A stretch of 64,000 nt of DNA from Variovorax sp. HW608 (GTDB lineage: Bacteria; Pseudomonadota; Gammaproteobacteria; Burkholderiales; Burkholderiaceae_C): NCBI RefSeq assembly GCF_900090195.1, contig NZ_LT607803.1, positions 4,490,229-4,554,228 on the forward strand, read 5' to 3'. Under the pieces are notes generated by a model that saw only the letters and a program-made list of their open reading frames with translations, was not told where the DNA came from and made no database searches. This document shows positions 42,734 through 43,677 of this stretch, piece by piece. How positions within the stretch are numbered: position 1 is the first letter of the stretch; each line of letters begins with the position of its first letter. The translations under genes were made by a program, and so were the position numbers.

Positions 42734-43558
42734 ATGGACCCAACACCAGATTCATCGCTCGTCGAGTTCCGTCACGTCGCCTTCGGCTACGACTCGCGCG
42801 CGATCCTCAATGACGTCTCCTTCGCCGTCCCGCGCGGAAAGGTCACCGCGCTGATGGGCGCATCCGGCGGCGGCAAGACCACGGTCCTGCGCCTCGTCGG
42901 CGGCCAGCTTCGGGCGCAACGCGGCGAGGTGCTCGTGAACGGCCAGGACGTCGGCAAGCTCGATACCGCGGGACTCTACGCGGCGCGGCGCCGCATGGGC
43001 ATGCTTTTCCAGTTCGGCGCGCTCTTCACCGACATGAGCGTGTTCGACAACGTGGCCTTTCCGCTGCGCGAGCACACGAACCTGTCCGAATCGCTCGTTC
43101 GTGACATCGTACTCATGAAGCTCGACGCCGTCGGCCTGCGCGGTGCGCGCGAGCTGATGCCCAGCGAGGTTTCGGGCGGCATGGCGCGCCGCGTGGCGCT
43201 TGCGCGTGCGATCGCGCTGGATCCGGACCTGGTCATGTACGACGAGCCCTTCGCGGGCCTCGATCCGATCTCGCTGGGCACCGCTGCGCGCCTGATCCGG
43301 CAACTCAACGACACGCTGGGGTTGACGAGCGTCATCGTCTCGCACGATCTCGAAGAGACCTTCCGCATCGCCGATCACGTGATCATCCTTGCCAACGGCG
43401 GCATCGCGGCGCAGGGGCGCCCGGATGACGTGCGCCGCAGCGACGATCCGCTGGTGCACCAGTTCGTCAATGCCCTGCCTGAAGGGCCGGTTCATTTCCA
43501 CTATCCGGCCATGACGGTGGAGGACGACTTCGGCAACAGCCACGGAGGGCGGGCATGA
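42734..43558 (+). CDS. mlaF: phospholipid transporter ATP-binding subunit MlaF
   Basis: ATPase of the MlaFEDB complex, which moves phospholipids between the inner membrane and MlaC to keep outer-membrane asymmetry. The 274-residue protein has Walker A GASGGGKTT, the signature SGGMARRVALARA, Walker B LVMYDEPFAGLDP and the switch His in VSHD. ATG at 42734; the open frame extends upstream through the terminator, which excludes earlier starts. Its stop is an ATGA shared with a repeat ORF, not directly with mlaE. Confidence 0.97.
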   Translation: MDPTPDSSLVEFRHVAFGYDSRAILNDVSFAVPRGKVTALMGASGGGKTTVLRLVGGQLRAQRGEVLVNGQDVGKLDTAGLYAARRRMGMLFQFGALFTDMSVFDNVAFPLREHTNLSESLVRDIVLMKLDAVGLRGARELMPSEVSGGMARRVALARAIALDPDLVMYDEPFAGLDPISLGTAARLIRQLNDTLGLTSVIVSHDLEETFRIADHVIILANGGIAAQGRPDDVRRSDDPLVHQFVNALPEGPVHFHYPAMTVEDDFGNSHGGRA

Positions 43559-43677
43559 GCCGCCCGGCCGCTCCGAAGGCGAATACCGAAGCGCTGCTGC
43601 GCGAAGGTACTCCAATGAGCCGCCGGGCCGCCCCAAGGCGAATACCGCAGCGCTGCTGCGCGGAGGTTAGCCAATGA
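43555..43677 (+). repeat. ATGA-junction coding repeat, copy 2 (40-codon ORF)
   Basis: Two tandem ~60-bp units between mlaF and mlaE form a 40-codon frame, MSRPAAPKANTEALLREG to CCAEVSQ. The start is the ATGA at the mlaF stop, and its TGA lies in the ATGA that starts mlaE. The 16-mer GCCGGGCCGCCCCAAG is at 43622-43637. It ends GCGGAGGTTAGCCAATGA, giving mlaE a GGAGG ribosome site 7 nt before ATG. A second unit-internal ATG (codon 21) is in the same frame. Relatives have mlaF and mlaE adjacent, so this is an insertion. Confidence 0.88.

Follow-up and report, generated by a model that had tools for sequence, protein, structure and literature searches.

Probable mobile repeats at NTGA stop/start junctions in Variovorax, resembling mycobacterial MIRUs in architecture

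Introduction

To our knowledge, the well-known example of mobile DNA in translational-coupling junctions is that of the MIRUs, and we know of no established mechanism for their movement; their description reportedly originates with Supply et al. in 1997. We know of no stop/start targeting and no coupled ORF in STAR elements. The tetranucleotide GTAG is the tag of many REPs, and non-autonomous elements derived from IS200/IS605 are inserted 3' of a target of 4 to 5 nt with no true target duplication, the element end resembling the target. In a 2025 review (PMC12548453), MIRUs are described as seemingly mobile, inserting at start codons with an internal ORF coupled at -4 nt, a mode of insertion that probably limits the effect on expression. 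A second paper (PMC4213456) describes tandem arrays of 77- and 53-bp MIRU units, restricts MIRUs to M. leprae and the M. tuberculosis complex, and reports that MIRUs in the senX3-regX3 interval can bring about separate expression of regX3.

The locus described here lies in the genome of Variovorax sp. HW608 (G000; 7.73 Mb, a single contig), which holds the 64-kb stretch of DNA that was analyzed (the window). A sequence-only reading had presented an insert between mlaF and mlaE as a candidate for an undescribed system; the architecture is already present in mycobacterial MIRUs (PMC12548453), and the Variovorax insert would be a further case of stop/start insertion. It appears to work like a MIRU and is filed with MIRUs by architecture, not as a member. 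Among the matches listed in a literature search (title or start of abstract, open-licence papers), nothing concerned such elements in Variovorax or Comamonadaceae.

Results

Two repeat units between mlaF and mlaE

The mla gene set in the window consists of mlaF, mlaE, mlaD, an MlaA-type lipoprotein gene, and mlaC; the start codon given for mlaF is our choice (Table 1). Between mlaF, whose TGA occupies 43556-43558, and mlaE there is an insert of 119 bp. The 40-codon ORF that the sequence-only reading had drawn from the ATGA ending mlaF to the ATGA starting mlaE proved exact to the base, and the GGAGG that it had placed at a proper distance from mlaE was found there. Its tandem repeat of about 60 bp is also real (TRF score 194, the top of the whole window; two copies 82% identical over 57 nt), but what had been taken for one 40-codon unit is composed of 60- and 59-bp units from different subfamilies. 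The frame is shifted by the shorter unit, and the two units therefore read their shared core differently, as ...KANTEALLREGTP (unit 1) and ...RRIPQRCCAEVSQ (unit 2). Judging by comparison with empty sites, the left ATGA seems to be the original target site, and the right ATGA was probably brought by the element.

The 40-residue product had no Pfam or NCBIfam match. The type-1 core folds with a GCGC...GCGC stem; RNA folds of the units were no better than those of shuffles (z of -0.94 and 0.48), and there was no Rfam match at gathering scores within the window. A functional RNA was rejected on these two results.

Table 1. Features of the window and inserts at the same junction in other Variovorax genomes (positions are those of the window)
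Feature	Position	Strand	Remarks
Type-1 dimer (L042)	1517..1639	-	Second dimer of this type in the window, lying at the end of a different gene; 60- and 59-bp units, bounded by ATGA on either side, ORF of 40 codons
RAYT-like Y1 transposase gene	35347..36048	+	233 aa; PF01797 match
mlaF (ABC ATPase)	42734..43558	+	Best NCBIfam match NF008809, 355 bits, below its cut-off of 441
Left ATGA	43555..43558	+	mlaF stop overlapping start of insert ORF; empty site gcATGAgc in sister genome G019
Micro-ORF MSRPAAPKANTEALLREGTPMSRRAAPRRIPQRCCAEVSQ	43555..43677	+	40 codons + TGA; starts on the ATGA that ends mlaF
Unit 1, type 1A	43555..43614	+	60 bp; in frame into unit 2; 60/60 bases identical to single copies at two other places
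Unit 2, type 1B	43615..43673	+	59 bp; carries GGAGG; ORF stops in mlaE ATGA; closest copy elsewhere 98% identical vs 86% to adjoining unit 1
GGAGG	43662..43666	+	Shine-Dalgarno-like, element-borne; 7 nt before mlaE ATG
Right ATGA	43674..43677	+	Micro-ORF stop and mlaE start; probably element-derived, judging from empty-site comparisons at other sites
mlaE (permease)	43674..44456	+	PF02405 and NF033619 above cut-off
Type-3 element (L222)	47743..47832	+	86 bp, bounded by ATGA on either side; ORF of 29 codons; lies 4 kb downstream from the mla insert
mlaF-mlaE insert of G023			68-bp type-2 element; frame of 23 codons, ends in mlaE ATGA
mlaF-mlaE inserts of G031 and G010			86-bp type-3-like elements; frames of 29 codons each, end in mlaE ATGA
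mlaF-mlaE insert of G011			29 bp, ends as in the 86-bp type-3-like elements; frame of 10 codons, ends in mlaE ATGA

Copies and their target

A type-1 core pattern with at most 3 mismatches gave 74 matches in the genome versus 1 for a reversed control pattern, and 4 in the window versus none in 100 shuffles; BLAST of a 60-bp query against the genome returned 58 matches. We read 52 type-1 sites and set aside a false match (L085) and, for their ends, L073 and L066 (among 51 real sites, the former lacks a left NTGA and the latter ends in TTGA on the right), which leaves 49 resolved sites. Their arrays measure 59 bp (21 sites), 60 bp (12), 119 bp (8), 120 bp (2), 118 bp (2), and 177, 178, 179, and 55 bp (one each). 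The left tetramer is ATGA at 45 sites and CTGA at 4; the right one is ATGA at 39, GTGA at 6, and something else at 4. The left NTGA at 49/49 sites is partly so by construction, because the left end was located by scanning a 19-nt stretch for NTGA; it lies 23 to 24 nt before the core at 48/49 sites, and the right end falls 35 or 36 nt past the last core start at all 49, with a chance of about 1% for TGA at a fixed position in the same DNA.

With genes called by open frame and codon-position GC rather than from annotation, a coding-like ORF stops at the left NTGA at 34/49 sites and one starts at the right RTGA at 32/49 (both at 22, neither at 5); an upstream stop and/or a downstream start is thus present at 44/49, with no called downstream gene at 17 and no called upstream stop at 15. 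Two of the five sites with neither junction, L034 and L043, look like in-frame 60-bp insertions inside genes. The copies elsewhere thus sit at NTGA, and we saw neither the random placement nor the ancestral shared junction that would have spoken against the sequence-only reading.

The base before NTGA is C at 44 and A at none of the 49 occupied sites, versus C 10, A 10, G 6, and T 2 at 28 native junctions from the window and fetched loci (Fisher p about 1e-6 for C). This preference belongs to type 1; type-3 copies in the same genome mostly have A or G before NTGA. ATGA makes up 30/34 coding-like TGA stops at occupied sites versus 35/134 native ones (p = 3e-11). Given ATGA, an extra preference for coupled genes was absent, start overlaps being found at 21/30 occupied versus 21/35 native stops (p = 0.44). 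The preference for overlaps is therefore a consequence of the target word ATGA, and further selection is not needed to explain it.

Open frames, unit lengths, and arrays

The 49 sites contain 67 units, and the frame of the ATG is open over the interior of all 67, versus stops in 7 and 26 units for the other two frames; a stop one codon early was seen in the L078 unit and in single units of G008 and G011 (L209 and L210). Type-1 units are 59 bp (39 units), 60 bp (27), or 55 bp (1) long, and all measured lengths are 2 mod 3 (59, 65, 68, and 86 bp) or 0 mod 3 (60 and 66 bp), with the 55-bp unit (L071) as the sole exception. Across sites, the encoded lengths are 20, 40, 60, 22, 23, or 29 residues. 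Of the 32 sites with a downstream gene, 31 have a match of at least 4 nt to the anti-Shine-Dalgarno complement ahead of the right start; such a match stands before the left ATGA at 19/32 and occurs in 20% of random windows.

All type-1 arrays that were read run head to tail and do not alternate. Among 18 adjacent unit pairs, both members had closer relatives elsewhere in 12, a figure which overstates the case because one neighbor competes with some 65 other units, and in 6 under a stricter cut; the neighbor was strictly the best match for both in 2. Some arrays mix subfamilies and so seem to have grown by successive insertion, and insertion beside an older copy explains such mixtures, since each element ends in a fresh RTGA. 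Neighbors in the L036, L074, and L086 arrays are 96 to 100% alike, and these arrays may have arisen by slippage.

Empty sites in a sister species

The flanks of the 49 sites were sought in the sister species G019, and 41 were comparable; classes were assigned by our own reading, and where an alignment stopped short of the junction, its position was extrapolated over at most 16 nt. An exact empty NTGA without a gap was found at 21/41 sites, and NTGA with local differences of 2 to 10 nt at 8 (L031, L040, L050, L052, L062, L084, L086, and L087). Seven sites are occupied in both genomes (L046, L047, L054, L065, L077, L080, and L081), and the other five are gap-free but non-NTGA (L034 and L063) or not interpretable (L057, L070, and L072). 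At the L046 junction, a 179-bp type-1 array in HW608 stands against a 68-bp type-2 element in G019, and at L054, 59 bp stands against a 35-bp fragment. L070 and L072 carry a type-1 unit in HW608 versus about 150 bp of other GC-rich sequence in G019 (L141 and L143).

Four exact empty sites have differing ends in HW608 (ATGA/GTGA at L055, L079, and L082, CTGA/ATGA at L083), and the empty site equals the left tetramer at 4/4; the right RTGA therefore seems to be element-derived. Two of the 21 exact sites, L037 and L074, do not fit simply, with an empty GTGA in G019 and ATGA at both ends in HW608. A right GTGA follows 15/34 units ending in TCCA, 0/18 ending in CCCA, and 1/15 with other ends. As the right base tracks the subfamily and the left tetramer matches at 4/4 sites, the element is best written as GCCGC...CCARTGA placed 3' of the target, with the target NTGA staying on the left. 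The target duplication suggested by the sequence-only reading is thus improbable, with the reservation that a 3-bp duplication of TGA may give an identical picture.

The same junction in other Variovorax genomes

The junction sample returned 30 loci, of which 29 are mlaF-mlaE junctions (HW608 included; other matching relatives, 41/61 genomes, lie outside this sample). A bare NTGA overlap is present in 24/29 (ATGA, with GTGA once and TTGA once), in keeping with an insertion in HW608, and 5/29 are filled. Among the 28 relatives, 24 have no insert and none has the insert of HW608. The five filled junctions hold inserts of three kinds, and the micro-ORF of each ends in the mlaE ATGA (Table 1). If the 29-bp insert of G011 is a shortened 86-bp element, the 57 bp lost are a multiple of three. 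From these comparisons, the junction appears to have been hit repeatedly in the genus.

Related element types

Type-2 elements, found in 31/101 genomes of the genus, are 65 bp (8), 68 bp (2), or 66 bp (1) long in G019 and G023. Type 3 was resolved at 11 of 28 places in HW608, with lengths of 86 bp (10) and 92 bp (1), a count from which the duplicate filter left out a triple array with 86-bp spacing (L238-L240); it is a mixed family, since the 17 other places often lack ATGA ends. One type-3 element (L222) sits between an ABC-type ATPase ORF and a next ORF that we read as permease-like. Two type-3-like copies, 81 bp apart, lie in frame at 17390-17535 (+) inside a long ORF (17023-18453) that is membrane-protein-like and, by eye only, resembles a cytochrome c biogenesis protein; this pair resembles Rickettsia palindromic elements in effect.

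The 60-bp type-4 unit (MSRTAAPKANSTAAEGEGTP) occurs in G005 and G008 singly or in arrays of up to four, often in frame with the next gene, and the last unit is sometimes 59 or 62 bp long; 20 type-4-related loci were fetched from G005, G008, G011, and G015 (L192-L211), and L203 and L206 were set aside for their ends. In-frame type-4 arrays would add N-terminal extensions of 20 to 80 residues. A GC-rich hairpin repeat with a type-3-like core (CCCCTCGGGGGGCAGCGA; L242-L271) occurs in 21/141 family genera, with 41 matches in G102, some at 84-bp spacings; the core pattern's spacing missed HW608's own type-3 copies. Its loci were not obviously ATGA-bounded in the 11 of 30 fetched loci that were read.

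Distribution

The type-1 core was matched in 29/101 Variovorax genomes, HW608 included (69 matches there, 15 in G019, at most 11 in each other genome, and 0 for the control), and not in 72/101. Genomes without a core match are not free of relatives: several of them, including G005 and G013, had matches to the repeat portion of the query, and type 4 is present in G005. A search of the family, a check suggested by the sequence-only reading, found the type-1 core, at one mismatch, in 2/299 family genomes, both Variovorax, and in 1/141 genera.

In a collection of one genome per species (84,980; records of the window's genome or of one very close to it may be missing), the exact type-1 core gave 30 stretches, from Variovorax, Xenophilus sp. 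L33, and one Burkholderia-titled record. No stretch among the 30 was Mycobacterium-titled, the query being the type-1 core and not a MIRU. Of these 30 stretches from named genomes, 26 were resolved, with both junctions at 16, the upstream one only at 5, the downstream one only at 3, and neither at 2; the left tetramer is ATGA at 22, GTGA at 3, and TTGA at 1. Left out were L152, L159, and L161, with diverged ends, and the Burkholderia sp. SRS-W-2-2016 stretch, without element-like ends. The 26 loci are partly non-independent, as L149, L169, L173, and L175 look like the site of L075; this site is seemingly occupied in at least five species and is an empty ATGA in G019.

A candidate for the mover

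The RAYT-like gene lies 7.5 kb upstream of the mla insert and is itself upstream of a glutamate-synthase-like ORF; it is one of three Y1_Tnp matches in HW608, the other two being of 152 aa. PF01797 is matched in 97/101 genus genomes (96 above cut-off; HW608 included), usually once, and in the 30 genomes, again including HW608, in which both were seen on one contig, some 8 kb separates it from the mla match. Y1_Tnp matches occur equally in genomes without a type-1 core match, and because PF01797 is nearly universal in the genus, the presence of the RAYT is uninformative as to the mover. Five element-end patterns had no exact match in the 1.4 kb holding the gene. With PF01797 near-universal and no element ends around the gene, the RAYT was rejected as a proven mover. 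The likeliest mover is a Y1 transposase (IS200/IS605- or RAYT-like) that acts in trans, as a candidate only and at somewhat less than even odds.

Discussion

Our main reading, to which we give a probability of roughly 85%, is that the insert is a non-autonomous mobile repeat which enters 3' of NTGA, brings an RTGA of its own, and keeps a passage for ribosomes. Insertion, target, and open frames are well supported, and polarity rests on four informative sites; we infer that the frame is translated, that the genes stay coupled, and that the element transposes, as well as the enzyme responsible. An element of the form GCCGC...core...Shine-Dalgarno...CCARTGA would enter directly 3' of NTGA, preferably in CATGA, as the empty sites support, and would carry a new RTGA at its 3' end. 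Since an ATGA that ends a gene usually doubles as the start of the next, insertions would land in operon junctions. The upstream gene would keep its stop in the left ATGA, and the ATG of the element would open a short frame that stops in the right RTGA (59, 65, 68, and 86 bp) or, in units of 60 and 66 bp, runs on into the next unit or gene. With this open frame and a Shine-Dalgarno sequence standing before the right start, ribosomes could pass from gene to gene, and since each copy ends in a fresh target, arrays could grow by further insertion. The element can thus probably spread from operon to operon while leaving their genes switched on.

Replication slippage producing a local tandem duplication (VNTR) of the junction would yield two head-to-tail units, as seen here, and neighbors 96 to 100% alike, as in L036, L074, and L086; yet the unit recurs at about 50 other sites, the two mla units are 86% alike mutually, whereas copies at distant sites match them at 100% and 98%, and 24/28 relatives have no insert here and none has that of HW608. 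We consider slippage very unlikely, and the neighbor-similarity test rejects it at the mla locus (its genome-wide form is weak). It is even harder to see the insert as coding for a small protein of 40 residues with a function of its own: the frame is open, with a start, a Shine-Dalgarno sequence, and a stop, but its product has no Pfam or NCBIfam match, other sites encode differing lengths (20 to 60 residues), and the core common to units 1 and 2 is read in a different frame in each, which makes this explanation extremely improbable. The insert might instead be kept for a changed output of MlaE, through uncoupling, attenuation, or an N-terminal extension. The MIRUs of the senX3-regX3 interval, which can bring about separate expression of regX3 (PMC4213456), offer a precedent, and three kinds of insert have entered this junction in the genus; but the family occupies about 50 other sites, the junction is bare in 24/29 genomes, and the peptide is not conserved, as the frame in which the core is read differs between the two subfamilies. 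We judge a regulatory insert rather improbable.

The remaining alternative is a palindromic element of REP/REPIN type that belongs to the resident RAYT and is found at ATGA because copies elsewhere were purged, without true target specificity. The RAYT-like gene nearby, Y1_Tnp in 97/101 genus genomes, the GCGC...GCGC stem of the core, and GTAG in 25/67 units all accord with it, as do L034 and L043, which look like in-frame insertions inside genes. Purging, however, leaves unexplained the C before NTGA (44/49) and the ATGA at 30/34 stops. The arrays run head to tail instead of alternating, folding is no better than in shuffles, GTAG is absent from 42/67 units, both mla units among them, and there is no exact element end beside the RAYT. 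We regard this origin as unlikely.

Our preferred reading, a mobile repeat that enters 3' of NTGA, places the element closest to MIRUs. As MIRUs are described (PMC12548453 and PMC4213456), they enter at start codons, and the Variovorax elements enter at NTGA, at stop/start or start codons in operons; both have an internal ORF that overlaps the adjoining gene, in Variovorax by ATGA on both sides at 2-mod-3 sites, 60-bp sites reading on in frame; and MIRU units of 77 and 53 bp, like Variovorax units of 59, 65, 68, and 86 bp, are all 2 mod 3. Unlike MIRUs as described there, the elements are hosted by Variovorax and Xenophilus sp. L33, in a different phylum. They also differ in having several subfamilies, some 60-bp units in frame into the gene, a C before NTGA, and an uneven copy number (69 core matches in one species and none in 72/101 genomes). 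With REP/REPIN sequences and RAYT (PMC2817692), they share many short dispersed copies, a Y1 transposase gene, and GTAG in some units; they differ in that GTAG is not constant, the arrays read lack the alternating BIME arrangement, no exact element ends lie beside the RAYT, and position is set by NTGA. Like the STAR elements of staphylococci (PMC3532100), they are interspersed intergenic direct repeats. The target kept on the left at the four informative exact sites may recall IS200/IS605-derived elements, although L037 and L074 fit poorly and a 3-bp TGA duplication would serve equally well; the likeness is one of insertion pattern and does not extend to a demonstrated autonomous relative, end hairpins, or an enzyme.

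More speculatively, and with considerable doubt, several Variovorax families may be translation-transparent mobile elements that recognize (C)ATGA, carry a relay frame of 0 or 2 mod 3, and restore their own target, with the vertically kept RAYT-like transposase 7.5 kb upstream moving them in trans. Mobile DNA would on this view have a standing niche in stop/start overlaps, one occupied independently in mycobacteria and betaproteobacteria. Because clean empty sites exist in a sister species, the mechanism becomes testable. For annotation, 60-bp units are a warning, as they yield spurious or real N-terminal extensions of 20 residues. If the main reading is true, these would be a second, unrelated-looking set of families beside MIRUs, one that has multiplied within a single species of a soil genus. 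The general rule suggested is that an ATGA overlap is an insertion target and that an element may survive there if its length keeps ribosomes in register.
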